DNA from: Patescibacteria group bacterium
Lineage (GTDB): Bacteria > Patescibacteriota > Gracilibacteria > UBA1369 > JAHKBB01
Direction: 5' to 3'
Length of the DNA: 35,444 bases
NCBI GenBank assembly: GCA_018826445.1
Contig: JAHKBB010000140.1
Coordinates: 1 to 35,444 of the forward strand
The translations under genes were made by a program, and so were the position numbers. The notes beneath the pieces are model-generated. The model saw only the letters and a list, made by a program, of their open reading frames with translations, was not told the DNA's origin and ran no database searches. Shown here one piece after another: positions 2,692-26,332 of this stretch (position 1 is its first letter; every line of letters starts with the position of its first letter).

Positions 2692-4437
2692 CTATATACT
2701 CGTTGCTTCCGTGTATTTCTTGAGCAGGTATACGACTTTTGCCGCTTCGGCTCTTGTCATTGGTCTTGTCGGCTCGAAAACAGTTCCTCCAACTCCTTTG
2801 ACGATTCCAAGAAGTCGTGCCTTTTCAACCCATGGTTTTGACCAATCGACTACGTCCGAGAAGTATGATTTTTTGTAAGTTCCCGGATCAACATCAAATC
2901 CCGCCAATGCGATTTTTGTCGCCTCCGCTCTTGTCACAAGGTCATTAGGCCTAAAAACTCTCTTGTCAATGTGTCCGTTTGGATACCCTTCAACTACTTC
3001 AAGCATGTACGCTTGAGCAATCCAAGGCTTTTGCCAATAATAGAGATCGGGGAAGAATCTAGGACAGGTTGCTCCCGTACAGTCATATGCCCCCGCTCCT
3101 GATGCGGCCATCACGAGCTTCACCATTTCGGCTCTTGTAACATACTGACAAGGTTTAAATTTGTCATTTCCGTACCCAATCATAATTCCTTCCGCTCTCA
3201 AAGCGGTGATATACTGGTTTGACCAAGGCGCGCATGAAAAATACAGATCAGAATTATATGGGGGAATGTACTGACATCCTTTTTCTTCATCCCAAGCGTT
3301 TGAATATTGACTACATGTACAAACCGGAGCGTTTCCTTTAAATGACAACTTTCCGCCGGAGTTTTGACATACGCTTATGTACTTGGATTGATCCACGTTC
3401 TTGATATAATACTCGTTTGCGTTCATTGCGGTTAGATTGCTTTTCGTTTTCTTTGAGCTGTCCACTCCTCCACCTCCACTACCTGATGGTCCACTACTGA
3501 AATTTGCCGTACCGCAGCCCCCGCAGCCTGTTTGTCCGCCGCCGGTTGGTGGTGGAGTCACACTTTCACACGCATCCCCGATTCCGTCACCGTCCGTATC
3601 TTTCTGATCTGCATTGGGAGTGTTTGGACAATTATCTGTTGCGTTTGGAACTCCGTCGCCATCTGTATCTGTAGGAGTCACACTTTCACACGCGTCGCCG
3701 ATTCCGTCACCGTCTGTATCCGCTTGATCCGGATTTGCTATTGTTGGACAATTATCTGACCTGTCCGTAATACCGTCACCGTCTGTATCAACAAATCCTC
3801 CATCTTCGTCGCATGCGTCTCCGATCCCGTCATTGTCTATGTCTGACTGATCTGGATTTAAATTGTTCGGACAGTTGTCCGTTGTGTCCGGAACACCGTC
3901 ACCGTCTGTATCAGTGGTTCCGGGGTCTGATCCGCAATTATTATTGTAATAATTACTTAGTATGTTTTGAGTTGGTACGTCTACTCTATATGTACCCGGG
4001 TTGTTCAAAATCGCTTGAATCGCATCGCAACCTATAGAAAAACTGAGCTGTGTACATGCTGTTCCTCCAAGAGGAAGATACCAACCTGGGGGACAAACAT
4101 CTGGAATTTCCGGGTCGTTATCGTTTACCGGATCACAAGCGTCTCCGATTCCGTCATTGTCCACGTCCGCTTGATCTGGATTTGCTATCCTTAGACAGTT
4201 GTCGTCTTTATCCGGAACTCCGTCACCGTCTGTATCGGTCGGGTCTGGATCCCCGGTTCCTCCGAGATCACAGTATTCAACGATTTCCTGATAGGTCATT
4301 TGACCTGTCGTTAGCCACTCTTGCATCTCCTGATATGTACAGAAAACAGCGTTCGCTTGTGGAACGAGCGGCGCGAGCGGCAGTACGAGCATTGTGATGC
4401 CCGCGAGCAAGGAAACGATTTTATTCATTTTACGCAT
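2692..4437 (-). CDS. secreted surface protein with thrombospondin type-3 repeats and three SLH domains
   Basis: This 581-aa protein has a signal peptide (about residues 1-30, ending PQANA). It then has four thrombospondin type-3 calcium-binding repeats of the form DTDGDGVPD...DNC...DNDGIGDACD. The first is near residues 66-100 and the other three run tandemly near 175-295. A Gly/Ser-rich linker follows. The C-terminal third holds three SLH domains (TRAEMVKLVMA, TRAEATKIALAG, TRAEAAKVVYLL). SLH domains bind secondary cell-wall polymers, so the protein should be displayed on the surface with a calcium-stiffened stalk. Two nearby Met codons are possible starts; the second gives MNKIVSLLAG. There is no Shine-Dalgarno site. 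Cys-rich segments between the stalk and the SLH domains match nothing I recognise. Confidence 0.88.
   Translation of the reverse strand: MRKMNKIVSLLAGITMLVLPLAPLVPQANAVFCTYQEMQEWLTTGQMTYQEIVEYCDLGGTGDPDPTDTDGDGVPDKDDNCLRIANPDQADVDNDGIGDACDPVNDNDPEIPDVCPPGWYLPLGGTACTQLSFSIGCDAIQAILNNPGTYRVDVPTQNILSNYYNNNCGSDPGTTDTDGDGVPDTTDNCPNNLNPDQSDIDNDGIGDACDEDGGFVDTDGDGITDRSDNCPTIANPDQADTDGDGIGDACESVTPTDTDGDGVPNATDNCPNTPNADQKDTDGDGIGDACESVTPPPTGGGQTGCGGCGTANFSSGPSGSGGGGVDSSKKTKSNLTAMNANEYYIKNVDQSKYISVCQNSGGKLSFKGNAPVCTCSQYSNAWDEEKGCQYIPPYNSDLYFSCAPWSNQYITALRAEGIMIGYGNDKFKPCQYVTRAEMVKLVMAASGAGAYDCTGATCPRFFPDLYYWQKPWIAQAYMLEVVEGYPNGHIDKRVFRPNDLVTRAEATKIALAGFDVDPGTYKKSYFSDVVDWSKPWVEKARLLGIVKGVGGTVFEPTRPMTRAEAAKVVYLLKKYTEATSI
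3554..3915 (-). repeat. about 120-nt tandem coding repeats (TSP3 units)
   Basis: Three consecutive units of about 40 codons encode DTDGDG...GDAC modules. The plus-strand string ggagtcacactttcacacgc recurs at 3554 and 3674, a 120-nt period. A fourth, diverged unit lies near 4130-4245. High nucleotide identity suggests recent duplication or homogenisation. Confidence 0.8.
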
Positions 4438-7212: not shown

Positions 7213-8196
7213 GTGAAAATTCTCGGGATCGAAACATCTTGTGACGAAACAGCATGCGCGGTTGTTGAAGACGGAACGCGGATTTTGTCAGACGTTATTT
7301 ATTCACAGGTTGATCTGCATGCGAAAACAGGAGGGGTCGTACCGGAAGTTGCCGCGCGTGAACATGTTCTCAAGATGATTCCGGTTCTGGAGGAAGCGAT
7401 ACGGGATCACGCGCCGGATACGATCGCGGTTACGAAGGGTCCGGGACTCGTCAGTTCCCTCATTATCGGGACAACGACGGCCTCCGTGTTTTCTATGGTG
7501 CAAAGGCTGCCAATCATTCCTGTAAATCATATAGAAGCCCATATTTACGGCAACTGGCTCGGCCGCGAAAATGATCTCCCGGAATTTCCTATCCTTATAC
7601 TGACGGTTTCCGGCGGGCACAATGAACTGTATCTGATGCGCGGCCACGGAGATCTTGAGATCGTAGGTGAAACGCGGGATGACGCGGCCGGGGAGGCTTT
7701 TGATAAGGTTGCGCGACTCCTTGAGCTTGGGTATCCGGGCGGGCCGGCTATCGCGAAGGCTGCTATTAATGGAGATCTGAAAAAGTATGATTTCCCGCGC
7801 TCGTATTTGGAAAAAGGCAGTCTGGACTTTAGTTTTTCGGGGCTAAAGACGTCTGTGTTGGATTTGGTAAAGAAGCAGGACGGCCTAACACCTGAATTTG
7901 TTAATGATTGCGCGGCTTCATTCCAGGAAGCTGTCTGCGAAGTTTTGAGCGACAAAGTTTTGACGGCGATTGCGAAATACAATCCTAAGGAAGTGCATCT
8001 GGCAGGTGGAGTTTCCGCGAATTTGCGGCTTAGAGAAATGATGGAGGAGAAAATTGGGGGCCGAGCCATATTTAGGTATCCGAAGGAGCTGTCATATTGT
8101 ACTGACAACGCGGCGATGGTAGCCGCGTGCGGATATTATTCTTATTCGAAAGAAAAACATAAAGCTTCCAATGTGACCCCGGTGGCGAACTTTTAA
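7213..8196 (+). CDS. tsaD: tRNA N6-adenosine threonylcarbamoyltransferase TsaD
   Basis: TsaD (Kae1/Qri7/YgjD family) transfers the threonylcarbamoyl group to A37 of ANN-decoding tRNAs, working with TsaB and TsaE, which are not in this window. I place the start at the GTG at 7213, which yields (M)KILGIETSCDETACAVVED, the canonical N-terminus, and 327 aa. An ATG at 7162 in the same frame would add 17 residues unlike the family. Further motifs are VVPEVAAREH, HIEAHIYG with two metal-binding His, ILTVSGGHNELYL, DDAAGEAFDKVARLL, GGVSANLRLR and CTDNAAMVA with a metal-binding Asp. All catalytic features look intact. There is no Shine-Dalgarno site before either start. It is the first of the plus-strand genes before the GC-rich cassette. 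Confidence 0.93.
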   Translation: MKILGIETSCDETACAVVEDGTRILSDVIYSQVDLHAKTGGVVPEVAAREHVLKMIPVLEEAIRDHAPDTIAVTKGPGLVSSLIIGTTTASVFSMVQRLPIIPVNHIEAHIYGNWLGRENDLPEFPILILTVSGGHNELYLMRGHGDLEIVGETRDDAAGEAFDKVARLLELGYPGGPAIAKAAINGDLKKYDFPRSYLEKGSLDFSFSGLKTSVLDLVKKQDGLTPEFVNDCAASFQEAVCEVLSDKVLTAIAKYNPKEVHLAGGVSANLRLREMMEEKIGGRAIFRYPKELSYCTDNAAMVAACGYYSYSKEKHKASNVTPVANF

Positions 8197-8216
8197 TATA
8201 TTTTGTCTAATTCTTC

Positions 8217-8245
8217 TTGTGTTAATTAATTACAACCTTTAAAAT
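8217..8245 (+). promoter_or_regulatory. candidate promoter for the peptide-transporter leader
   Basis: -35 TTGTGT (8217-8222), a 17-bp spacer and -10 TAAAAT (8240-8245) lie in AT-rich sequence between tsaD and the GC-rich cassette. Initiation near 8251-8253 would place the first leader hairpin at the 5' end of the mRNA. The hexamers are only moderate matches. Confidence 0.4.
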
Positions 8246-8250
8246 TAACT

Positions 8251-8551
8251 CCTTTTGTGTGCAAAAGGGCGAACTCTGGCTTGTGGCCAGTGGTTTGCCG
8301 TCGCTACAAAAGTTCCATTGTTTTCCAGGAGCTCTCTAAGGAGAACTTCCTGTGAAGATATGATCATTGACAAGCAGTTAGATAAATTCAGACACCTTAC
8401 TATTTTCGGTGTCGTGTTGAGGGACACGATTCACCGAATGGATACAAACGTTGGTTCCGAGGTTTCGGGACCACGACACACATTCTCCACAATCACATGG
8501 CCTGTGGTGGAGAGTAAACATTGTCCGGAAGGACAAAAGGAGGTAAGGGCC
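8251..8551 (+). promoter_or_regulatory. highly structured 5' leader of the POT transporter, candidate riboswitch-like element
   Basis: About 300 nt between the predicted promoter and the transporter ATG hold consecutive strong inverted repeats. 8251-8268 is a 7-bp stem. 8268-8299 joins GGCGAAC/GTTTGCC and CTGGC/GCCAG. 8323-8356 is about 12 bp with internal loops. 8405-8438 is 13 bp with a 2-nt bulge. 8453-8472 is about 8 bp with one G-U pair. 8484-8513 joins TCTCCAC/GTGGAGA and CACA/TGTG. 8521-8536 is TTGTCC/GGACAA around a GGAA tetraloop. CTCCTTTTGT at 8249-8258 is the exact complement of ACAAAAGGAG at 8533-8542, which contains most of the Shine-Dalgarno site. The loop of the sixth hairpin (CATGGCC, 8496-8502) complements GGCCATG at 8548-8554, the start codon. 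I recognise no known riboswitch consensus. The frame is open but the translation resembles nothing. Confidence 0.55.
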
Positions 8552-10609
8552 ATGCCTATGCTCATGTTATTCACATTCGCGCTCACGGACAAGCTCAAGA
8601 ACTTGTTCGGGCACGACCCGAAGTGGCGGACTAAGCCGCTTCCGACAACGGGGCACCCTCCCGGCGCCCCATTCATCATCGTCAACGAGGTCATGGAGCG
8701 ATTCTCGTACTACGGCATGAGGGCGGTCCTCATGATCGTGATCACCACCCTGCTCCCCTTCGACCAGATCATGACCGAGGAGGAGGCGAACGAGCTGTTT
8801 CACGGCTTCATCGTGTGGAACTACGCGTTTCCTATCCTCGGAGCCATCATCGCGGATGCGTTCCTGGGGAAGTACCGGACCGTCTTGTACCTCTCCCTGG
8901 TCTACGCCGCAGGATGCTTTGTTCTCGCCAGCGACCAGTCGATTGGCTCGATCAAGCTGGGCCTCATGTTGATCGCCATCGGCAGTGGCGGGATCAAACC
9001 GTGCGTGGTCGCCTACCTCGGCGATCAGTATGGGGAGGAGAACAAGAGTCTGGTCAACAAGACCATCACCCGTTTCTACCAGGGCATCAACCTCGGTGCG
9101 CTTCTGTCTATCTTCCTGACTCCATTGCTCCTGCAATGGTTCGGTCCGGAAGTGGCCTTCGGCGTCCCGGCGGTGGGCATGCTGCTCGCGACCTTCGTCT
9201 TCTGGACTGGTCGCAACAAGTACGCCCACAGTGTCCCGAAGGGGTTCAGCCAGGTTATGACCGAGTTGCGCGTGGGGCTGAAGCCCCTCCTGAAGCTCGT
9301 CGGCCTGTACCTCTTCATGTCCGCCTTCTTCTGCATCTACGACCAGAGTGGCGGCGAGTGGATACTTCAGGCCAGAAAGATGGACCTCAACTTCTTGGGG
9401 TTCGAGTGGTTGGCGGCACAAGTGCAGATGCTCAACCCGCTGATCATCGTTCTGTTTTCGGGCTTCCTTGAGGACAAGCTTTACCCACGCATCAAGAAGC
9501 TCCTCGGTTCGGAGCTCTCGGTGATCACCGTGGGGCTGGGCCTCACCTGCCTCTCCTTCATGATGGTGACGTTTGTCGAGATCAAGCTCGAAGACGACAT
9601 CCTCATGAGCATCGGCTGGCAGTTGGGCGCCTACGTCCTGCTGACCATCGGAGAGGTCTTCGCCTACCTCTCGGCCATGCAGATCTCGTACAGGAAGGCA
9701 ATGCCCTCGATGAAGTCCTTCGTCCAGGCCGTCTTTCTCTTATCGGTCGCCCTTGGCAACCTCTTCACGCAGCAGGTCAACGGCGTGATCCAGCAGGATC
9801 CCCCGACCTTCGCGCCCGACGTGATCGGTGAGTACGTTCTTAGCCTCACCGCTTCCGACGGCCAGAGCGAGAGCACTTCCGAGTGTACCCTCGTCGTAAT
9901 GTCCGACGCCGACTACGCGGTCCACGATGCGAAGGTGAAGGAGGGCCAGAAGGCAGATCAGCTCGACAAGAGCCTGAAGGGAACGGCTGGCAGGGACCGT
10001 GCGGTTAAGCTCGGGCGCACCGATGTTCCTCTGTACGGCAGTGCCGGATCTGGCAAGTTGGGCATCAAGACCTTCAACTACGCCTGGTCCATCAAGAGCC
10101 TGCCGGAGGGGAGTAAAATGACCCTCACCGACATGGGCGGTCTTGACCGGCGTCTTGCTTCCTTCACCCCGGACGTGTTTGGGCTGTACACGTTCGGCTT
10201 CGAGGCCCGCCTCGACGCCGAGAAGATCACCGACGAAGTGGTGGTCAACGTGACAGACAAGAACCTTCCCCCGGTCGTTCTCGCCAGCGCGAGTCCAGTG
10301 AAGTTCGGCGATGAGGATCACCCTGTGATCCTGAACGGGGGCGCTACCTACGACCCCAACGGCGACGATCTTGAGTATCGCTGGGATATCGTCAAAACCC
10401 CCGAGGGGAGCGCGATCACCAGCGATGACGTCAAGCATCGCTTCGTCGCCAGCAAGGGGAGCATCATCAAGGGCTCCGAGCGCTACCTCTTTTTCACCAT
10501 CCTGATCATCCTGGTCACACTCGGGTTCATTCCCTTCGCACGGAAGGTTGACCTCGGGTCCGACTACTACCAAGGAGACAAAGAAGAGGACTCCGCTGGC
10601 ACGGCGTAG
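8552..10609 (+). CDS. POT/PTR2-family proton-coupled oligopeptide transporter with PKD-type periplasmic insertion
   Basis: This inner-membrane MFS transporter (685 aa) imports di- and tripeptides with protons. The proton-coupling motif NEVMERFSYYG gives E46, E49 and R50. PTR2 signature 1 is GAIIADAFLGKYRTVLYLSL and signature 2 is FYQGINLGALLS. About twelve membrane helices can be read. Between helices 11 and 12 lies an unusual loop of roughly 230 residues (about 411-643) with PKD-like segments. The start at 8552 is set by AAAAGGAGGT at 8535-8544 with ideal spacing. The frame stays open upstream to 8255, but that extension lacks a ribosome site and homology. The gene is about 60% G+C in a sampled line, against about 47% in tsaD, and is rich in CTC, GTC and ATC codons, so it looks acquired. 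No partner genes flank it. Confidence 0.9.
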   Translation: MPMLMLFTFALTDKLKNLFGHDPKWRTKPLPTTGHPPGAPFIIVNEVMERFSYYGMRAVLMIVITTLLPFDQIMTEEEANELFHGFIVWNYAFPILGAIIADAFLGKYRTVLYLSLVYAAGCFVLASDQSIGSIKLGLMLIAIGSGGIKPCVVAYLGDQYGEENKSLVNKTITRFYQGINLGALLSIFLTPLLLQWFGPEVAFGVPAVGMLLATFVFWTGRNKYAHSVPKGFSQVMTELRVGLKPLLKLVGLYLFMSAFFCIYDQSGGEWILQARKMDLNFLGFEWLAAQVQMLNPLIIVLFSGFLEDKLYPRIKKLLGSELSVITVGLGLTCLSFMMVTFVEIKLEDDILMSIGWQLGAYVLLTIGEVFAYLSAMQISYRKAMPSMKSFVQAVFLLSVALGNLFTQQVNGVIQQDPPTFAPDVIGEYVLSLTASDGQSESTSECTLVVMSDADYAVHDAKVKEGQKADQLDKSLKGTAGRDRAVKLGRTDVPLYGSAGSGKLGIKTFNYAWSIKSLPEGSKMTLTDMGGLDRRLASFTPDVFGLYTFGFEARLDAEKITDEVVVNVTDKNLPPVVLASASPVKFGDEDHPVILNGGATYDPNGDDLEYRWDIVKTPEGSAITSDDVKHRFVASKGSIIKGSERYLFFTILIILVTLGFIPFARKVDLGSDYYQGDKEEDSAGTA

Positions 10610-10879: not shown

Positions 10880-13800
10880 TTACATTTCCATCACTTTGAC
10901 CACGATCTTGGACATTTCGGCGCGTGTGATGCTTTGACCGGCTCGGAATGTGCCATCGTCGTAACCTTTGACAATTCCTTTGTTGTATGAGGTTAGGACG
11001 TAAGGCGCATACCATCCGCCCGCATCGACATCTGAGAATGGGTTCTCTGTGACTTTGCCGACTTCGACACCGCCCGTGATGAATAACATCTTAAGTGCTT
11101 CCGCACGGTTTACGTTTTGATCCGGTCTGAATGTTCCGTCTGTGTATCCGCCGATTATTTTCATGTCTTTCGCTTTCTTGACGACCGGTGCGTACCACGC
11201 GCCCTTGTCTACGTCCGGGAATGGGTTTGCTGATACGGACGCCGGAACGGTTTCTCCGAGGCCGAGCAGGATGATCTTTAGGGCTTCCGCTCTGGTTATC
11301 TGAGCATTTGGCTCGAATGTCGTCGCGGAGCGTCCTTTGATCACTCCCTTATTGTATAGCTTGGCGATGAATGATTCTCCCCAGTGTCCGATAGTGTCTG
11401 TGAATGGTGGTTTTGCTTCGGCTTTTTCTGCTTTTTTCTTGGCTTCTTCAAGCTCTTCACCTTCTAGGATTTCGATGTCTTTCACCTTCAATGTGACCTT
11501 CTTTGGCTGTGAAGGTGTGTCACCGGCGCCGCCTCCACCGCCGCCGCCGCCTTGGTCACCTCCATCGACTGGAGGTCTACAGATAGGGTTGGTATCGCAT
11601 TCGGGATCTGCGCAGTCTTTGTGTCCGTCACCGTCATTATCTACTCCATCATTACATATTTCCTGGCCACACGGACTAACTCCCGTACAGTCGCTATCCG
11701 CACAGTCCACGGCAAGATCCCCGTCGTCGTCTACTGAATTGTTACATGTCTCTGTAGCTTCTGCTGTTATCACAACCGGCACAGAACTTGATCCCGTGGA
11801 TTCATTACCCGATGTGTCGACCGCTGTAACGGCGTAGTATACGGTTCCCGTTGCCGGTGGAGTTAGGTCTGCCCATGCGCTGTCTGTGACAATTCCGAGG
11901 TTGACTTGATTTCCTTGAATTATCGAGACCGGAGTTGTTGCGCTTCTGTACACTTCGTACTCAAGGAAGTCAACTTCTGTATTGTTGTTCCAGTCGAGTA
12001 GGACTGTGTTTCCGCTCTTTTCTCCGGATAGTCCGGTTGGAGCCGCTGGAGGGTCTTCATCTGTTGGGATCACCTCACCATATATGGTCAAGTGGTCTGT
12101 CCATACGATTATCTTGCTGTTTACGGCGTCTTTACTGAATGATACGTTGCTCCATTCTCCATTTGCTGAGTCGTCCACGTATCCGATATTTACAGTGTTG
12201 ACGTCATCGACTGTTATTTCAATTTTGATTGATGAATTAAGGCTTGTGACGGTTTGTCCGCTTGAATCTGTGATCGCAATGTCGTATCCAAGTCCGTCTT
12301 CCGTCTTAGCCACACCTGTTTCGGGAGCGGCAATTTTTGCTACAGAAAGTCTGTATGTCGTGCTGGCTGAACCCGTTAGGGCTCCACCAGGGATCGTTAC
12401 AATCACTTTGCCGTCTGTTGATGTCAGCGTTACTCCCGTTGTCGGATTAAATGTTGTGGTTGCCGGCCTTTGACTTGTGAATCCTGCTACTGCCGTCATT
12501 GGTATAGTTTTTGCTCCGGGGCTGGTAGTGTTTGCGATAGTTACAGTCTGTGTGTTTCCGGCAGTTGTTTCGTATCCAACATAGAACGCCTTAAGGGCGT
12601 ATGTACCATTTGGCAGACTTAGGGTGACCTGTCCGTTACCGTTACTGTTCGTGTTTCCGGAAATAGAGTTACCCTTTGCGTCTGTGGCAACAACTCTTAC
12701 TACGTCGCTAGGTTGTGATCCCGCAAGTGTTACCGTCACAGCCTGTGAAGCCGCGTTTGTTGCGGATGTTATTACGAGGTTCTTTGTAAGGTTAGCTGCC
12801 GCGACACTTAGACTTGCCGCTTCGGAAGGAGTGTAATTTGTCTTTCTGGCTGTAACTATTACTTTTCCTAGGTTTGCGGGTACATACATAGTGTACGCTC
12901 CGGTGGAATTCGTTTCAGCATTTCCCGCGATGAAGCCTTCGACAGGATCTTTTGCCTGTACTTTTGCTCCACTTACACCGGTTCCGCTTCCATCTTTCAC
13001 TGTACCGCTGATGGTTACAGGTGATGGAACTGTAAACGCTAATGACGTTCCCTCTGACACGACCACTCCGGCTTGAGTTGTAATTGGACCTGCCCCTTCC
13101 ACAAATCCTCTGATTGTGTATGTACCAGGCTCCAATCCCATAGTGCTTGAACTTGCACCTTTTATCTGAAAGTCGGACCGTTTGCCTGTGATGGACTCTA
13201 CGTTTACAAATGCATTTGTGACCGTGACCGCGGATCCACCTTCATTTATAAATGATATCGGAACTGAAACTGTACTGCTTGCAAGACTTGTGGTTCCAAG
13301 CGCAACTGTATCCCCTGATGACGTGTCTACCGAACAGCTAATATTTTTATTGATATTAATCTTCTTTCCGTCGATGATCTTGGAGACAAACGCTCGTACA
13401 CAATACTGACCGCTTGGAACTGACAATGAATATGCACCATTTACGTCTGTTACTACTCCTCCATAGTACGGAGTACTTGTATTGCTTTCTATGGACACAT
13501 ATGCATCTGGAACTCCTGTTCCGCTTATTTCTAATGTTCCCGTTACACTTACGAATCCTTGTTTTACGTAGATTGTATTCCCTGTAGAATCCGCAGTTCC
13601 CACTACGACCTGATCCGGCAAGCATGTTTCGGCAGTACCATCAAATGCGCAGATTTGCCATCTGGTGTTATCTCGTACTCTGAATGAGTACGAACCGTCA
13701 GTAGAGAATATCTCTTTGTGTCCAGGCATTGGATTGCCATTTGAGTCTCTTTCGTTGGCAAACACAAGTGCGTTTTGCTGGAGTGTGTTTGCGTCCGCTT

Positions 13801-16800
13801 TTACAGATCCGCTAAGTGTCCTTCCAGGTACCACCATAGGAACCGTTACTGTGGCGGGACTATTTTCCGTATTTGCGGATGCAACCTCTACGGGTATACC
13901 AAATACTTCTCCAACTCCGGGTTTGATAACGTCAACAAACACAAGTCCTTCAAATGCGATAAGTTTTGCTTTACCAAGTGCACCTGTCGCCTTTGGCATT
14001 CTTCCCGCCGCGGTTACCATGGCATTTTGCACTGCGTTTCCGGATGCGTCCGTTACCGTTACTTCAATATACTTCATGTCGCCGGTACCTAGATTGAATG
14101 TAATGGTGTCTGCGGTTGATTCATCTGCGTCCTTGAATCCATTCGCAAACAAGTTCTTAGGTGGAGGCGGCATAAATCCGAAGTCTTTTGTTGTCGTTGT
14201 TTTAGCCATAAACGGCATGATTTCCATCCAATACTGTTCGTCTTCTATAACATTAAATGTCATGGAAGCGGCTCCTGATGCATTCAACGTAACTTCTTGT
14301 TCGTATGATTCTCCGTACATATTGCCTCCTCTAAACTGGACTTTTGAATTTGCATTACCTCCGGTTATGTTGACCGCTACCGGAACTGTTGAACGACCAT
14401 TCATCGTACTTGCGTCTGTTGCATGTAGCGTAATAGATTCCGTACGTTGAGCGCTTGGATTTACTATTTGTATTCCTCTTCCTTCGTCATAGTATCCTGA
14501 AGGGCCTTTTACCTGTATGTCGTAGAACATTGGGTTGAGTCCGCTAAACGTGTGGGTTGCCTGACCGCTTGTGAATGTGAGAGTAACGGCTTTACCTCCA
14601 AGGTATGCGGTTGTCGTTGTACCATCACCTATATCAGGCGCACTTACGTTCAAGGTTATAGATGCGTTACCTTGTGGTGAAATATTCGTTTTCGCTATCT
14701 TTTGCTCGGCGGAAATAGGCCTTCCTTCCGCATTTAACGGCTGAAGCGTTACGTCATAAGTACCGGGACCCGGGTTTCTGATACCCTTTATGTCTATCGA
14801 CACAAAGTCTCTTGCGTTTGTAGTCTCAGAGAACGTCAAAACCAGTTTCTTTGCGCTATTATTCTTTGTCATGCCGGACACCGTAATTGATTTTGGCGCG
14901 GGTCCGTTTATGTCGCAGTTCATCGGACTGCTCTCCGCGCTTTGTGTTGTGAACATACAAGGAAGCATTGCCGCGTTGGACACATCGAAGCCCGAGTTTC
15001 CAAATGTGATTTCGAGTCCCTTAGCGGCCTGATCCACAGGCATGTTTATGAAGTATGTACTCGTAGCGGCCGCTGTTGGATCTTGAGCGTTTGCCTGCCA
15101 TGGAGAGAAGTCATAGAACATTTTGTCTCCCGTGGCCATAACGCTCTTATCAAATTCATTTACGAAGCTGTAAGTAGATTCTATGTATCCCTGGAATGTT
15201 CTACTAGAGTTGTCAATAGGATTTCCGGAATTATCTTCTACTTCTCCGGCGTCTATCTCTATGTAGTATTCCGTGTTCGCTTTGAGCGACAAATCTCTGA
15301 TTTTCAACATATGAGGTTGAGGCCATTCAAATGGCTTACTGCTCAAGTTCACGCTTGGTCCACTGCCATTTGAATATGGGTTTTTGATTGAAAGGTTCTG
15401 GTAGTTGATATCTCCTGTAGATGCGCTCACAATCGGTTCACTGAAGAACAATCTACATTCGAATTCTTCACATTCCACCCAATCCAATCTAGGAGCTTCC
15501 GTGTCCGTTGCCTCACTTGTTGTGAATATCCTTTCAATATTACCGCTCAGACTTCCTCCGGTTAACGTTGTTAAACTTGAATCGACGATGATCTTGTACG
15601 TTTTATCCGGCTGTAGAGATTCCCTAGGGGTCCATGTCACTTTTTTGTCCCGCGAGAAGTATTCCTTGTATCCTTTTACAGTTGTATTTCCCGCAAGAAC
15701 GTCTACTATTTGGATCTTGCTGGAATCGAAGTTTATCGGATCCTTGAAGAATAGTTCAATGTACGGTTGATATGAGGGTACTCCTGTGAACGCCTGCAGT
15801 GATCCATCCCATAACCAATCTATGTTTGTACCCATTATTTCCGGTGCATTCGCCTGTGTTGTTCCGGATGTATAGAAACACGTCATTGCTATCACCCCCA
15901 GATCTTTTGGCAGATCCGGCGGAGATATTATCGCGTTTCCGTTTGCATCCAAAACTTCATTTGTTAGCGCGAAACAGTAGAAATAATTATTTTTAAGCGC
16001 TGTATTAACGCTGAGCGATATTTTTCGAGTTCCGGATGAGTAGCTTACACCGACTTCCGTCGCGTTACCGGACAATAAGTATTCGACCGGGTTGAAGCCC
16101 GATGCCGAACCTTGCGCTCCCATCTCGTATAGTCCGCTGTCTCCGGCAAGCGCCGTTGTAAGAGTTGATGTGTCAATTTCGTTGTTAAACGCAATTTCTA
16201 TGTTTGAAAGGTTGTTTGGAATTCCCCTCATCATTGGACCCGGATATATATATTCCATGAAAGTGTTATCGTGCTTGTCTGAAGAGTTTATCAGGTAGTT
16301 TTGACACGAGTTGTATGCCAGAATTCCACATCCACGCGTATTGCTTGAATCGCTTGAAGTGGATAGCGCATTTCCCGCAAGGTCTTTGATCTTGCTGCTT
16401 GCGGTCATCTTATAGCTTCCTCCGGATGCGGCAAACTTGTTTAGATCCAGCCCGTCGATCCGGATTTCGCTCTTGCCGTCCCATACTTCGGAGCGGTAAT
16501 TTTTCCCCGTCAGCGGGATTGTAATGCTTGGACTTCCATCGTTTGAAACGAGCAACGTATAGTTGTCCAGGTTGCTGGCCAGATCTTTCTTTACCACTTC
16601 CGAGAAGATTATTCTGCATCCAAATGTATCACATTGCACCCATTCCACATATGGCGCCACCGTATCGCCTGTACCGGAAGTCGTGAATGTAAAGCTTGTC
16701 TGACTTCCGAGTACACCTCTGCTGTTCGGGAAGTTGTTTACAACCCTTGCCGTATATTCCGTACCTACCGACAGCGGTGCGCGCGGGAATATTGTCACCC

Positions 16801-19800
16801 TCTTTTCCGGCGGGAAATATTCGTAGTCCGCCGCTACAAATGTGGAAGCGTTTCTCGTGTCCACTGACCCGATACTGGCCGTAGGCGCCAGATATATGTA
16901 GTTCGATGAAGCAATTGCCGCCGGTATTGGCGTTGAGAATCTTATTTCTATAGGCGCCGTTGTGGAAACTCCGGTTGCTCCATTTTGAGGTGATACGATG
17001 CTTGCTGTCGCGGCCGCTGTATTTGTTCCCGAGCTTGTCGCAAAGTTCATCCATAATGAGAATGGGATGCAGTTGCCTTGATCACTTTGGACGCAGTTTG
17101 AGTAATCCGATTCGGGACCTACCAGCTGAAGTTTGTACTCCGTACTTGCTTCAAGCAGTGAAGCCGCCAATGTGATGTCTAATCCTTTTTTCTTCTCGTA
17201 GTACGTAAATGACAAATCGCTTGACTCATCCGATACCAATGTTTGTGTTCCATTTACAAGCTTGTACAGTTTCACGCTGTCTTTATCCAAACTATTCGAA
17301 TTGAGTCCCCTGTTGAACAATAGAGTAATTGTCTTCAAGTTTGTTGGAACATTCCAATTATTGAAGAATGGATGGCTTTCTATAATGCGCATCTCGAAGA
17401 ATTGGTCGCTTATGTCATTTACACGGCTTATGAATGAATTTGCGGACTGGTCGATTATATTTCCTCCACCGAAGTCCGTTACATTGCTTACTATGATCTG
17501 ACATTCACTGCCTTTTTGTAGAGTTATACCGCTAATCCTCAAAACATTGAGTTGACCATCATAGTTGAAGGATGTATTGGTCAGACTTTTTGAGGTTCCG
17601 ATAGGGCTTTGCAGCGAGTAATTTGCCCTATTTGCCACTTGAGCGTCATTCATCGGCTCACTAAATCCGATCTCCACAACGGATGTCGTGCAAGACATAA
17701 ATTCCACTCTTGGAGCTGTCGTGTCTGCTATTTGTGTTTCAAACGTTTTTGTGTACTGGTTGGCAAGCGCGTTTCCCGCGGCATCTTTAACACTTTTTGT
17801 TACAGTGAATGTGTATGATGTATTTGCTTTCAATCTTTCCTGGATTGCAAACACCGCGCATTTACCGTTGGTATTGTAGGAGGTATTTCCCGCGGCATAC
17901 GAAACACTTCCACTTACTATTGTTGTCAATATGATTGGAGCGCTTGCGGTTCCGGCATTTGTACTATATATGCTTCCCGCGTCCATATCTTCGTTGAAGC
18001 ATACTTCCAAGTGTTTGGTCGCGACCGGCATAGTGTTTTCAATTCCTACGTATGAAACTAATGGAGCTGTGCCATCCGCCGCTGTCGCAAAGAAGCTGAG
18101 TCTGTACATGCCTCCCCTTATCATGTTGCCGGCGTAATCGGTTGTGTTCATGATCTGGACTTCATACTCATGTCCCGCTGTCATGCCTATATTCACCATT
18201 AAGATTTTTTGTGATTCTAAGTATGTGTAATTATCACTTGTTATGGCTGTGAGAGTTACTCCCGCTGACGAGAAGTCATACAGGTATATGTTGTTTTCAA
18301 AGCTGTTATAGTCCACGGGTTTATTGAAGTACAGCATCACAGCGGTTGCGCTGGCCGAGATGGATCCTCTTTCAAAAGGAAGTGTCTTTACTATCTCTAG
18401 AGGTTGTCCGTCGTCGAACGTCGCGAGATTTATCGGTGTTATTGTCACTGTGTTATTAGGCGACGCGAGTATATTTGCTGTAGGCATCGCGAAGTCCGTG
18501 ATTCCCGTGAGAGTAATTGTGTATGTAACTCCGGCAACAAGTCTCTTGTTGAACTCAATGTTCATTCCATTAAACATCTTCCATTTTCCGGTTACAGCCA
18601 AATCATTCACTCCGTCTTCCGTATCCGTTGGAGAGATTTGAACATTGTGCCCTGTTCCCCATATTTCCACATCTTCGTTGAAAAAGATCTCCACATTCCT
18701 TCCCCCGTTCATGTATGCGTCTATAATTTCCGGAGGGCTTGTATCTTCCTCGTACCCTCTAAAGTAGAATTCTCTATTGGTGACATTCAATCCCGTTCCG
18801 CCTTCGTCGTGCAAGTTGCCGGATATGGTTATTAGATAGTTTATATCCCCCTGCATTCCGGACAAGCTTAACACCACCGTTCTTCCACCTGTTCCTTCTT
18901 CTATCTGCGCGCTTGTTACTGTCAATGTTTGTTGTCCGTCTGAAGATTGAACTGAGAAGTTTCCCGGAAGGATGGTTGCTGTGTCTAACGGTTTTGTGAA
19001 ATCAATGCCGACACTTCCTGCTCCCATTGGGAATACACCAAACACTTTCAATTCTGATTCATATGCGTTTACCGCTCCGATCGATGGATTTTCAGCGCTA
19101 AAGTCGCATGTGTGACAGAACGTATTTGTGGAGAATTTGTCTCTTTGCAGGGACTGTCCCGTATTCGGAGCGGATAGTGTTTCCCAGTTTGAATCCGTGC
19201 TATCTCCCATTGATCCCCACATGACTCCGTCGACCCACTGGAAGTATCCATTAATCGTAAATATTTCCAGAGACCCTTTTGACTTGTCCCCGAGACTTAC
19301 CGTTGGGTTGCCAAGTACCAGGTACGCTCCTTTCATCGCATTTGTTACGCTTTCGTTGAGCAGTGTCGTTCCTTTTGTAAAGACGCCCGCATCAAATCCT
19401 CCTTTGCCGTTTTGACCGACACAAGTTACCGCCGATCCGTTATAGGTGATCCTGCATTCAATGGTTGGACCGGTGTTCCAGCCTGTGTCGAAGTATTGTA
19501 CGTAGTAGTTTGTTAGGCTTACACTATCTTCCGCTATATATATTTCAATCCATTCGTCCTCAGCGGCCGTCGCTGAGCCTCCCGGACTATTATTATTAAA
19601 GCCGCCCGTACTGTAGTCTACAGCCGGGCTGAACATGACTTCGTTAACGACCAATGGGCTCATGTACATTCCGTACTGTTCGTCTATTGTTGTGCCTTCA
19701 CCGACATTTACGACTAGCGCGTTTGAGTACGTAGATCCGTTGTATACTCTTACGTACAGAGTTTCATTTGGCGGAAGGTATTGTGTATCTATCTGGAACA

Positions 19801-22800
19801 TGTTCCCCTGGTTTTCTTCTATGTGGAATTGTGTTCCGAGCTCTACGGTAGAGCTATTTCCGAATAAGAACGTACAGTTGGAGTCACAACTTTCCTCAAC
19901 TACGTGAGCCGTCATTATGTCTCCCTGGACAGCGCTTGTATAGTCCGCAAACCATTCGAGGGTGAGTGCGCAATCGCTGTCCGCTCCGTCCACCATGCCG
20001 TCTGCGTCGTTGTCGAATCCGTCGCTACATGCTGTCTCTATTCCGTACTGGCATGTAAATCCTCCCGGACCCATTTGTCCGTTACAGTCTGAGTCGGCGC
20101 AGTCTATAAATGTATCTGAATCATCGTCTATCGTATTATTACAAATTTCGCTTGGTGCGCAATCGGTGTCCGCTCCGTCCGCCAAGCCGTCTGCGTCGTT
20201 GTCGAATCCGTCGCTACATGATGTCTCTGTTCCGTACTGGCATGTAAATCCTCCCGGACCTAATTGTCCGTTACAGTCCGAGTCGGCGCAGTCTGTAAAC
20301 GTATCACTGTCATCGTCTACTGAATTGTTACATGTTTCTACAGCGCAATCGCTGTCCGCTCCGTCTGTCATTGTATCTGCGTCATTGTCGAATCCATCGT
20401 TACATGTTGTCTCTGTCAAGTACTGGCATATTCCTCCTGAACCTTGTAGTCCATTACATTCTGAGTCCGCACAGTCCGTGTACCCATCTCCCTCGTTGTC
20501 TATTGAATCTGTACAACTAGTTTCGGTTGTAGCGACGTTTATCGTAATCTGCATTTGTTCCGTGTTGGACAAACTGTCTGTAATGTGGAGGTAGTATGTT
20601 CCGTTTGCTATTGACGAAATTGCGTCAGAGAATGAACTTCCTGATGCAAATGTTCCCGTAATATCTTGTCCTCCGTCCTGAACCGTAGTCCCGGCCCCGT
20701 CTTTCAATGCGTATGTCAAAGTTCCTTCATTTATACTGGCGGCCGTACCGGCTAGTGTTATCGGCGCGCTGGTGTATGAACTTGAACTTGTTATCAATAT
20801 CGGTGTTCCCGCCTCATATACATAGAACGTTACTGTACCAATCAAAAATCCTGAATCGGCAACAGTGATTACGTATCTTCCAGCTGACATGTTTGTCAGA
20901 GTTGGTGTATAAGGGAATGAACTTACGCCACTATAACTTGCGACAGGGTTCATAGCGGGATCTGAAATCGCTATGCTGTATGGAGGTGTTCCGCTTCCCG
21001 TTACCGTGATCGAGAGAGCAACGTCATTTGATCCCGAAAAGTTTATTAATCCTACCTCGGACCATAAGTTGTTTGTAGTATCTCTCATTATCACAAAGTA
21101 CACACCTGAACCGTCCAAGTTGCTTGTGTCGAATGTTAGCGGGTCCGCGCTACTGCCTATAGATGCATACATTTGAGCTCCGCCGTTTGCCGTAACTATT
21201 CCGTCTGCAAGATCAGATGCCCTAAAGATGTAGTAGTCACAACCCACTACGGAACAATCTATTTTATTATCATCCCCTATGTACAGGGTGCTTGCTGTGG
21301 TAGTTGTATAGGAACTGAGATTTCCTTGCGTTCCTCCCGTTCCGGCGCTAAAGTTTCCGGAAGTTTTATTCCATTCTGTTATTGCTGTCTCATATGAAGT
21401 TATGTTGAGATCGCCGGGAGCTCCTGTAATCGTAACTGTTGCCGGTAAGTTTGCTCCTATGTCCAGACTGCTTCCAAAGTCTACGTACCATATAAATTGT
21501 TCCTGGCCTTGAACTCCAGCCCTTGCATCCGTCGCTCCTACGACCTCATAATCACCACCCATGTGGAGCGTGAATGTTGCCGTTGATATGTCTGTAGGTG
21601 AATTGAATTCCACATACATTCGATCCGTTGGTTCTGAAACATCAACTTCACATTCTTCCCCGCCGCATTCGTATATCATTGGATATGTCGTATCGGTAAC
21701 TTGTAGCTGTGCAGGCCGTGACCATTCGGCTCCTCCGGTATCGTATAGAGCCGCTAAATAATATCCCGCGGTCCACGTTCCGGTAGTTGCACCACCAATT
21801 CTGTATCCCTCGGCGGTCGTTTCGATTGTTTCAAAGGCAGTGTCCATTATGCCGGCTATTTTGTATGTGTAGTTTGTATCAATACCCCCTAAAAGGGATA
21901 GATCTGAAGGCTCAAAGATGTATAGATCGCAGCCGCTTGCACATGTCGTTTCATCGCCGCCTATGCCAATTAGAGTGTCTTCTCCCACTTCAGCGTATCT
22001 GCGTCCACTACTTGCGGTACTTGAATACCAAACGCTAATTTCCGGTTCCGCCGCTCCGCTGATTTGAAAACTACTTACTGCTAAGGAAGCTGTTATTGAT
22101 GGAGCCGCACATGCCGGGTCTGCGCTGCAGTCTGAGTCGCTGCAGTCCGTACTGCTGTCGCCATCATTATCAAGAGTGTCCTCACAATAACCGGCTTCGC
22201 TTGTAATAGTAAAGATAACGTTCCCAATCTCCGACCACACGCTGTTTGTCGTATCTTTAACGAGAACGTAATAAGTGTCTGCCACTCCACCGAGATTGCT
22301 TGTTGCAAAATTATATGGATTACTGCTGTTGCCGGACAGATTATATGTACCGTTTGCGGTTAAGCCTCCGCCCAGTTCGTCAACGGTAAAGAAATGATAA
22401 TCACAGCCGACTACGGAGCAGTTTTCCACTCCTTCGACAGTATTATCTTTTGATATGTAGAAGCTGGCTGCTGAAGTCGAGAGCATAGATGTGTTACTAC
22501 TAAAATCAGTGGTTTCACTTAGGTCCAGGTCGAATGATTCGGAAGCGCCGCCTGATATTGCCATTAGTGCTTCAAGCGTAATGATTTCCAGCCCCTGCGG
22601 ACCATCCGTGACGTCTATGGTCACAGCTGCTGCCGCGTTAATACTGTTTTTAATATTCACGCTGTTGTCAAAATCCAGATACCACATCTGATTATCGGTA
22701 TAACTTCCCGCTAGCTCAACCGGATTGCTGGCCGCATATGGCGCCGCGTCTATATTAAGGGTCATGCTAGCCCCTGTAAGATCATTGCCGGCCGGGAACC

Positions 22801-25800
22801 AGAAGAAGACTCTGAATGGAGGTTCTCCCCAGTAGCTCCATGTTCCGGCGAGTGTGGAGTCGTCACTCAAATACAATGAGTTACTGTCTCCAAGTTCATC
22901 TGATAATGCCCATACGCTATCGGTAGAGACCCAGTATATATAGTATGAACCGTATTGGTAATAACTTTCGCCGCCGTATGTACCTCCGGCAACATACGTA
23001 CCATCCATGCCCGGATTGTGAGGTATACTGCCGGACGCAGAAAATATGTAATCGGATCCCGATAGGGTCGCCGTACCGGTTTCGCCCGTTACTGCTCCGT
23101 CACAATCAAAACCGCCGCATTCAAAGAATGTGTTTGATGCCGGCATACCGCCGCCGCCTGTATCTCCATACATTATTTTGATAATATTTGACCCACTTCC
23201 CGCTGATGTGTCGTATATCATCGCCAAATAATATCCGGCACTCCATCCTGAAGTTGTGCCTGTGCCAATCACATATCCTTGATCAGTACCTATTGCGGTG
23301 AACTGTCCGCTTGTAATTCCCGATTGGTAAAACAGTCTGTTGACAGTAATACCATCTAACGCGTTTTGAGGTGAGAATACATATAAGTCACATCCGCTCG
23401 GACACGTTGTGTTAGTGAATACTACCGATACGGGATCTCCCAAATTGTACGTCCCCCAATTATTTGTTGCGTTGTTCCCGATTATCGGGTCGTCATTGTC
23501 TTCAATTGTTATTGTCGCCGATTCGCTTCCGCCGGTGATGTTGTACGTGGCGTCTGTTGTAATTGTTATTATTATTGTTTCGTTTGCTTCTACGTCATTG
23601 TCCTCTGTTATGGATATATTTACAGTTGCCTGACTAAAGCCTGTTATAATCGTTGCCGTTCCGGATAGGGCACTAAAATCCGTACCGCTTGTCGCTGTAC
23701 CCGATACTGTGTAATATACGTTGAAGTTGCCCTCTACCGCTTCTGTCGCAGTGACGGTAAACGATGCCCCTATTCCTTCGTTCACGCTTGTCGTTCCCGA
23801 GATCGCGACTTCAGGCACAGCATCGTTGTCCAGAATCGTTATTGTCGCGGATCCTTGTCCGGCCGCGATTGTGTACGCCGGATCTGCTGTAAGGGTGAGG
23901 ATGACTGTTTCATCATCTTCCATATCGTAGTCCTCTGTCGTAGTAAGGGTAAGACTGGACCCGGTACTTAACAACAGATTCGCACTTCCAGTGAAAGCTG
24001 AGTAGTCAACTCCACTCGCAGCCGTACCGGTCATTGAGTAGAGTACGGTGATAGGACCCACAACGTACCTGTCAGCACTGATTACGAAAGCTGTTACGGC
24101 CATGCCCTCAACCGTGGTTACCCCTCCCGTTGTTGATACTGAAAGTTCCGGCGGTGTTTCGTCATCTCCGAGATTCATTGTTGCCGCCGGATTTGCCTGA
24201 TTGATGCCATAATTGGCGTTGCTTGTGAGAGTCAGAATGATTGTTTCAAGACCTTCTGTATCCCCATCATCCGTTGGAGTCACTGTGAGGGGGCCACCGG
24301 AGTTTCCTGCCGTGATCGTTGTGCTGCCTGACAATGCTTCGTAGTCCGTTCCATTTGTCGCTGTTCCGGATATTGTATAATAAATTGTTAAGTTACTTGC
24401 TAATACCTGATCGATTTGTAAAGTAAATGTTCCGTTGTGGCTCGGTTCGGACGCGTGATCATTTGCGCTGTTTACGGAAACTGAAATTTCCGGCAGACCT
24501 GCTTCGTTATCTATGATCGTCAATGTGTCCTGTCCGGAAACGATGCTGTACGCGGGGTCCGCTACCAGAGTCAATATCACCGTTTCGTCATCTTCGGCGT
24601 CTTCATCATCAGTCACAAATAAGCCTATCGTTGTACTGCTGGTTCCGGATGTAATTATTGCCGTACCGGAGAGGTTTGTGTAGTCTATTCCGTTCGTCGC
24701 TGTTCCGGACATTGTGTAATGAACCGCCAAATCCCCGCTTACCGCAACGAGATTTGCATTGCTAATGGTGAATTGCCCATTAGTGGACGGCTCCGCCGGA
24801 CTGCCTGATGTTGTAACCGACAGTGCGGGTCTTGTGTAGTTGGTATTTAAAGTTCCATCGTCATATGTTGGCATTTGTCCAGCCACTATGGTCACAGTGT
24901 CTGTCAAACAAGAAGCCCCATTACTGTCCTCGCATATGTTTGTAACCGCCAAATTAACATCTCCGCCGCCCGTGACCGGGTGCGAACTATTGAAATAATA
25001 CATTGCCTCATAAAGAGTGGGTTGGTATACACTATCCGGAGTACTGCCCCCGAAGGAAAATTTTGAAGTATCATTCAAGTCGATACCGCTAACCGCTCTT
25101 GAGAAAAGTACAGTGACTGCGTCTCCTGTCGTGTTGTATACCGATCCGGTTGCCCGAAGGATTCTAAAGACGCCATCATCTGTCGGATATATGAATCTTG
25201 CCGTGTGACTCGACGACTCCGTTTTTCCTCCGTTTTGCAAAGCCGCCGCGGTTGTGGAGGCAATGCTGTCGCTCACATATAAGTAGCCAGAGTACATTGA
25301 CCTGTTAAAAGTCACATCCACGCACGTATAATATCCGCTTCCCGAATCGCATCGGGCCGGAACATCCACGCTCACAACCCCGTCTCCCCAATTGGTTGAT
25401 GCATAACCATTATTATGCATAACCGCATAACTCGCCGTGGAATTTACAGTCGCATCGGCCTGCGCGACTCCTCCGCCCGTAAAGGTGATCGTTACAACCT
25501 CCAAGTTGGTTGATGTTGATCCGTTCGCTTGCACTGTACTGACACAGAAACCGGTACAGCCTCCGCCGCCGCCGAATAACTCACCCATCGCGTCCGCGTA
25601 AGAATTGATTCCTCGCGCCGTAGCGATCCCATTATTAACCGTGATATCCACGGTGTAGCCCGCGGTTGTTATGTCCACTCCTCCAGCAAATTCTACTAAC
25701 CACATCCCATACTGTACCTGACCGGGATCCGGATACATGTCCGTAGCGGACAGAGCGGTATCCACCGGAGTTCCTCCATTGTCCTTCAAAATATATGTTC

Positions 25801-26332
25801 CCGTTGCCGCGTCCGCGTTTGGCACATCAAACCACACAATCAGTTGATTTGCCGCAAGTCCGCCGCCTGTTGCTTCAAACGGATACACTCGTCCTATGTC
25901 TGTCTGTACATCTTCAACCATCATCGCATTACTGAACGAATCGACTGTTTCCCCGAGCGAACTTTGTGCCCCGATCGTAATATCCACCGTCGTATTCGCC
26001 GCGGTCACGTCGTTCCCCTCCGTGAATGTAACCGAGAATACCGTGTTATCCGGAGTTTTTAGCATAGCCGATATATCGGTCGCCGTCGTTTGTGTGTCCA
26101 CTGTGCTTCCGTTTACTTTCAACACGTAAGTACCTGTCGCCGCGTCCGGATTAGCTGTATCAAACGCGACCACTGCTATATTATTGGGGTAACTGCCGCA
26201 GTTCGCGCCGCAACTGTATAACTCAAATACATACGGATAGGTTATTGCCGCGGTCACGATCTTCAAAGATCCGAATAAAAGCAACAACAGACCAATAGCG
26301 AGCATGTAAAAAACGTACTTGGATTTACTCAT
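10880..26332 (-). CDS. giant (5150 aa) multidomain SLH-anchored surface protein, candidate adhesin
   Basis: One uninterrupted frame of 15.4 kb. Approximate order by residue: signal peptide 1-29; beta-rich N-terminal modules 30-500 with two copies of a [12 protein letters not shown]-like unit; four Calx-beta domains 500-950; two copies of a GCDLY(I/V)F / CSVVGCDY super-repeat near 970-1375 and 1447-1765; SprB-like repeats near 1770-1935; Cys/Asp-rich DNDGD repeats resembling MopE metal-binding motifs 1938-2129; a lamin-tail-like domain 2220-2426 ([16 protein letters not shown]); about eleven Big_5/SbsA Ig-like domains 2427-3725 (forms such as [10 protein letters not shown]); carboxypeptidase-regulatory/CnaB-like domains 3810-4620; a ZU5-like domain to 4754; FN3 4757-4854; two more MopE-like repeats; a Gly-rich linker; three SLH domains 4977-5150. 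It should be secreted and held to the cell wall by the SLH end, with adhesive or calcium-binding modules projecting outward. No enzymatic domain was recognised. No Shine-Dalgarno site is present. Confidence 0.88.
19968..20519 (-). repeat. three tandem 186-189-nt coding repeats (Cys/Asp-rich metal-binding type)
   Basis: The plus-strand phrase gcgcaatcg(c/g)tgtccgctcc recurs at 19968, 20157 and 20343, periods of 189 and 186 nt. Each unit encodes two half-repeats of the form CxDxxDNDxDxxxDCADSDC followed by a CQYGTET linker. The first two units are nearly identical in DNA, which suggests recent duplication. Regular Cys spacing and Asp clusters suggest disulfide-stabilised metal sites. Confidence 0.85.
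21040..23420 (-). repeat. two-copy super-repeat of about 320-400 residues within the giant protein
   Basis: Copy A (about 23420-22210) and copy B (about 21990-21040) share an ordered set of segments. These are SGCDLY(V/I)F(S/E)P, then GYYLA(M/A)(I/L)YDT, an ECGG(F/E)(D/E)C segment, NCSVVGCDY(H/Y)(F/I)F and DTTN(S/N)(V/L)WSE(V/I)G. A single MopE-like Cys/Asp unit (22190-22105) separates them. The module matches no domain that I can name. Confidence 0.7.
23480..24835 (-). repeat. four tandem Calx-beta domains in the giant protein
   Basis: Each unit of about 110 residues starts like PEISVS or PALSVT. It contains a YT(M/I/V)SGTA(T/S)(N/S)G(I/T)DY segment and ends DDETVILTL...DNxA. These are the hallmarks of Calx-beta calcium-binding domains of extracellular adhesins. 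Confidence 0.85.

Follow-up and report, generated by a model that had tools for sequence, protein, structure and literature searches.

The long RNA leader preceding a peptide transporter gene in a 35,444-nt contig of a Patescibacteria group bacterium (the window, from a genome of 1.05 Mb in 148 contigs) raises the question of which of its parts is the conserved signal and what this signal might do. To our knowledge, how bacteria of the Candidate Phyla Radiation regulate their genes has hardly been described at all. The leader was calculated to fold at −117.6 kcal/mol, compared with −87.4 kcal/mol for shuffled sequences (z −6.1), which, together with the Pfam assignment of the downstream product (Table 1), bore out the initial annotation's description of a structured cis-acting leader before a peptide transporter. 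A search with the Rfam covariance models gave zero matches at the gathering score, the best weak match having an E value of 0.94, in agreement with its statement that no known riboswitch consensus was recognizable. No sense-strand terminators were seen within the leader. The promoter-like element listed in Table 1 was missed by a stricter promoter scan, which gave GTGACC-N18-TATATT at 8173-8202 instead.

Table 1. Coordinates of the features of the leader and its downstream gene in the window.
Feature	Position	Strand	Evidence
Promoter-like TTGTGT-N17-TAAAAT, putative RNA start near 8252	8217-8245	+	Read from sequence
5' arm (8249-8258) of the proposed long-range helix, with local 5' hairpin	8249-8268	+	Arm present; hairpin pairing probability ~0
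Stem-loop GGCGAAC..GTTTGCC	8268-8299	+	MFE and centroid fold
Stem-loop immediately 5' of core	8326-8352	+	MFE and centroid fold
Conserved core TGATCATTGACAAGCAGTTAGATAAATT, boxA-like portion 8362-8372	8361-8388	+	91-94% nucleotide identity, three relatives
Hairpin 3' of core, with its own sequence at the position of the relatives' covarying hairpin	8405-8438	+	Fold
Stem-loop	8453-8472	+	Fold
Hairpin with loop CATGGCC (8496-8502)	8484-8513	+	Hairpin and loop common to window and G063
GNRA-loop hairpin abutting the Shine-Dalgarno (SD) site	8521-8536	+	Core pair probability ~1
SD site AAGGAGG	8537-8543	+	Sequence
POT-family oligopeptide:H+ symporter gene, 685 aa, PKD-like insert	8552-10609	+	PF00854 (E 1e-63), PF22352

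The POT protein scored above the cut-off of TIGR00924, while its match to another POT model, TIGR00926, was split into three stretches; its PKD-like insert showed likeness to a myxobacterial family. Elsewhere in the window, 10880-26332 (−) encodes a giant surface protein of 5,150 aa in spite of the 1-Mb genome size, with SLH, Big_5, CarboxypepD_reg, and Calx-beta domains, and 2692-4437 (−) encodes SLH domains with thrombospondin type 3 repeats, a surface protein of calcium-binding type.

A DNA search of 99 relatives recovered the segment 8345-8388 in three other genomes, all of them Candidatus Peregrinibacteria of other genera or families, and each copy lay ahead of a POT or MFS gene, inside its leader. 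The 28-nt core was 91-94% identical among these leaders, whereas the two POT proteins could be aligned only in part, with 26% amino acid identity. When 84,980 species were scanned for the exact core, these genomes were returned and, outside Peregrinibacteria, only unrelated chance matches; scans of viral contigs likewise gave only unrelated matches, mostly coding, and plasmid DNA searched with two of the leaders gave none. A phylum-wide pattern search recovered the window alone.

A covariance model of the core and the following hairpin built from four training leaders (R1) matched blindly two further genomes, G026 (E 1e-9) and G011 (E 0.003). With a second model (R2), run on 353 genomes, two more were gained, namely G077 (E 0.005) and G349 (E 0.03). 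These E values are per genome, and the matches in G011, G077, and G349 are individually weak; they were accepted on the combination of boxA, hairpin, and downstream gene, judged after the matches had been seen. Most weak matches (E > 0.001, downstream third-position GC content (GC3) of 0.2-0.5) were set aside as chance. The genes following the module encode OPT in G026, a CitMHS/antiporter-type protein in G077, NhaA in G349, and, in G011, a short protein of secreted type with a signal-like N-terminus. Thus, from the gene families at these and the POT and MFS loci, one leader module is common to unrelated secondary transporters (POT, MFS, OPT, CitMHS/antiporter, and NhaA).

In six relatives, the hairpin 3' of the core was paired in 97% of alignment cells and showed double changes in 6 of its 11 pairs. 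Double-change cells numbered 10, against 3.4 in shuffles (0 of 500 as high), and slid controls were much lower. For this comparison, the hairpin arms were aligned by hand with loops removed, and the set consisted of three model founders (G073, G034, and G063), G026 and G011, which had entered via R1 and hence via a model leaning toward structure, and a gene on L113 picked by codon usage as a GC3 outlier. The covariation by which the initial annotation had proposed to check the RNA was accordingly found in the hairpin of these relatives, and the window, whose hairpin differs in sequence, is not among them. Since homologous leaders occur in other genera and families, the proposed new cis-acting RNA is indeed a candidate family, real and previously unlisted, and so far only found in Peregrinibacteria and relatives within the same class. 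As judged from the sequences, its defining parts are the boxA-type site and the hairpin after it, rather than the anti-SD helix on which the original proposal had centered.

The assignment of the core to boxA was based on the rRNA operons of the same order, whose 16S-upstream leaders carry GATCTTTAACA-type boxes. A matrix of these boxes matched all cores (shuffle p 0.0003-0.004); the window core scored 7.7 (p 0.0035), and the rRNA boxA sites themselves scored higher, at 11-24. The canonical boxA GTTCTTTGACA was present in divergent family members, whose copies (TGTTCTTTGACAAGCAG in G026 and G349, TGCTCATTGAAAAC in G011) are nearer the canonical form. The boxA consensus GYTCTTTAANA was described for gamma-proteobacteria, and boxA sites in mRNA are already known (PMC5725501). 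Conservation of the core extends ~15 nt beyond boxA, and its mean unpaired probability was 0.50-0.56 in the window and 0.26-0.36 in the relatives. NusB (PF01029) is encoded in all four genomes. A strong boxA-like site was also noticed in G063 ~190 nt 5' of a polynucleotide phosphorylase-like gene (L065:6990-7007, +).

With moderate confidence, we therefore regard the module as a Peregrinibacteria leader family carrying a boxA-type, Nus-factor signal through which exported-protein genes would be expressed at a high level or in a protected manner. NusB and ribosomal protein S10, with other Nus factors, would assemble on the boxA site of the nascent RNA, and the Nus-bound RNA polymerase would adopt an rRNA-like processive, pause-resistant state. 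The Nus factors may also aid folding of the long leader, whose end, a hairpin next to a strong SD site, would serve as a platform for efficient translation. The binding of NusB-S10 at this site, the direction of the effect, and its purpose, to make exported proteins in high amounts or under protection, are suggested rather than demonstrated by this reading. The Rho RNA-binding domain was detected in 0 of the 4 genomes, compared with 9 of 14 control genomes. Protection from Rho is for this reason unlikely as the rationale, and this form of the model was dropped; the modified polymerase would instead act on pausing, speed, and RNA folding. Against the Nus/boxA reading stand the lower score of the window core, the conservation past boxA, the lack of terminators in the leader that would need read-through, and the absence of the covarying hairpin sequence from the window itself, as well as the GC3 outliers lacking boxA and the outcome in G052 described below.

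The codon usage of the downstream genes was distinctive. Their GC3 was 0.77-0.89 (0.84 for the POT gene of the window and 0.89 for the secreted-type gene of G011), with the exception of NhaA of G349 (0.59), versus ~0.36-0.47 for the genomes (means of 0.36 over nearly the whole of G063 and 0.44 over the 28% of G000 sampled). High expression of the EF-Tu kind was rejected as the source of this bias, as the GC3 of EF-Tu was only 0.30-0.53. Among the other GC3 outliers of G063, found regardless of the RNA, are proteins of secreted, Cys-rich, and BT1/MFS type. In the 450 nt upstream, 3 of 5 outliers in G063 had a boxA-like site scoring 12 or more, versus 0.75% of its other ORFs, in a test that was not fully blind, the motif having been spotted by eye before it was scored with the rRNA matrix. 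One outlier in G063 and one in G000 lacked boxA. In the 400 kb of G052 analyzed (40% of the genome), the single outlier had no boxA, and no module was present; the link is thus a property of genomes bearing such genes, not of the order. Two M23-peptidase/golvesin-type secreted proteins of different genomes (L194:5569-6594 and L134:11523-12590; GC3 of 0.77 and 0.68) were 32% identical, their high GC3 having been either retained or gained twice.

Strong SD sites are similarly out of keeping with the genomes. With simple start calls, AGGAG preceded 1.6% and 2.5% of ORFs, and a permissive scan for AGGAG or GGAGG gave 6-8%, while 9 of the 13 genes with a leader or outlying GC3 in these SD-poor genomes had one of the two motifs; the full AAGGAGG preceded 0 of 163 ORFs sampled in the window's genome. 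A published list of SD-scarce bacteria includes a Peregrinibacterium (PMC10783764). The 16S ends here keep CCTCC; in G071 and G073 (L074 and L077), the 3' ends showed a change of this anti-SD to TCTCC.

Both features would also be explained if the leader, the strong SD, and the GC-rich codons had been imported together with the genes, the donors being GC-rich bacteria that use SDs, possibly hosts, and the boxA-like sites being the donors' signals. The gap in GC3 from background and EF-Tu, the similar codon usage over four genomes, the strength of the SDs, and the myxobacterial affinity of the PKD insert are all in line with such an origin. However, the exact core is confined to Peregrinibacteria apart from chance matches, the leader is common to unrelated protein families, and such relatives of the proteins as are carried on plasmids are only remotely similar (~22-34% identity). 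Import, donor signals included, is accordingly unlikely. Another conceivable account, which we consider improbable, is that the transporter and exported-protein genes form a small set, within SD-poor and AT-richer Peregrinibacteria genomes, written in a foreign style of GC-rich codons, strong SDs, and boxA leaders that was kept through long divergence, that is, a separate expression programme, possibly host-matched or repeatedly captured from hosts.

Sensing of the transported solute (a peptide, amino acid, or ion) by a riboswitch with the core as its ligand site would suit a long, structured leader with a near-invariant core that occurs only before secondary-transporter and exported-protein genes. 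The substrates of these transporters, however, are unlike (peptides or Na+/H+, for example), boxA already accounts for the core, and there is neither an alternating terminator, a conserved anti-SD, nor an Rfam match; this possibility is distinctly doubtful.

The initial annotation had placed the regulatory feature in a long-range helix that would hide the SD region in a translational switch. The complementarity of CTCCTTTTGT (8249-8258) to ACAAAAGGAG (8533-8542) was confirmed, as were the SD and the ATG at 8552, and an exact 10-nt complement to the SD segment arose in only 2 of 5000 shuffled leaders. Its caveat also held, in that a start at ~8252 leaves 7 nt of complement, a length reached by ~5% of shuffles. 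In the partition function, the helix had a pairing probability of ~0.55 with an RNA start at 8246 and 0 with a start at 8252; according to this model it would need transcription to start at or upstream of ~8249, which the nearest −10-like box TAAAAT, with a start at ~8252, does not appear to favor. Of the two local hairpins that were to compete with it, the 3' one (8521-8536) formed with a probability near 1 at its core, and its counterpart in G063 has a GAAA loop, while the 5' one (8251-8268) had a probability of ~0 for both starts, so the ensemble does not show the proposed competition between two mutually exclusive states. In G073 and G034, SD-region complements did not exceed the chance length (5 nt), and the best complement in G063 was a loop-to-start-codon match rather than an anti-SD. 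With the helix dependent on the start and such pairing missing from the relatives, the competing states are not the conserved feature, and a switch of this kind is very unlikely.

Equally slight is the likelihood of a local translational lock in which the CATGGCC loop (8496-8502) would pair with its complement GGCCATG at the start codon (8548-8554): G063 retains both loop and start with the remainder of the stretch 73% identical (over 71 nt around the 8484-8513 hairpin), but only two leaders with identical segments are involved, so that covariation is absent. That the core is a DNA element, a promoter or protein-binding site, is highly improbable despite its TTGACA, which was rejected as a −35 box for want of a −10 box at the proper spacing and is lost in divergent copies (TTTAACA in G077, TTGAAAA in G011), and in view of the covariation of the flanking hairpin.

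On the Nus/boxA reading, this candidate family of leader RNAs has a protein partner, NusB-S10, that can be put to the test, in organisms without a detected Rho domain, and the module marks genes serving uptake and surface functions in these dependent cells; boxA control would be extended to protein genes in a role other than blocking Rho. Like translational riboswitches, the family places a long structured leader ahead of a transporter, but it differs in having no conserved alternative pairing that sequesters the SD and in matching no known family. Like the boxA of mRNA 5' UTRs in E. coli suhB and others, it has a boxA-like site in the leader of a protein gene; the suhB type lies near the SD and is repressive and Rho-coupled (PMC5725501), whereas the boxA of the window is ~190 nt from the start, in a family of long structured leaders of transporter genes in which Rho was not found. 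With the boxA of rRNA operons, the site of NusB-S10 antitermination, it shares a TGNTCNTTGACAA-type motif in the nascent RNA near the 5' end, and its 3' extension bears a loose resemblance to the GTAATAGAGA portion of rRNA leaders in the order. It is distinguished from rRNA boxA by its genomes, apparently without Rho, by its place before protein genes, by its extended 28-nt core, and by the specific covarying hairpin that follows.
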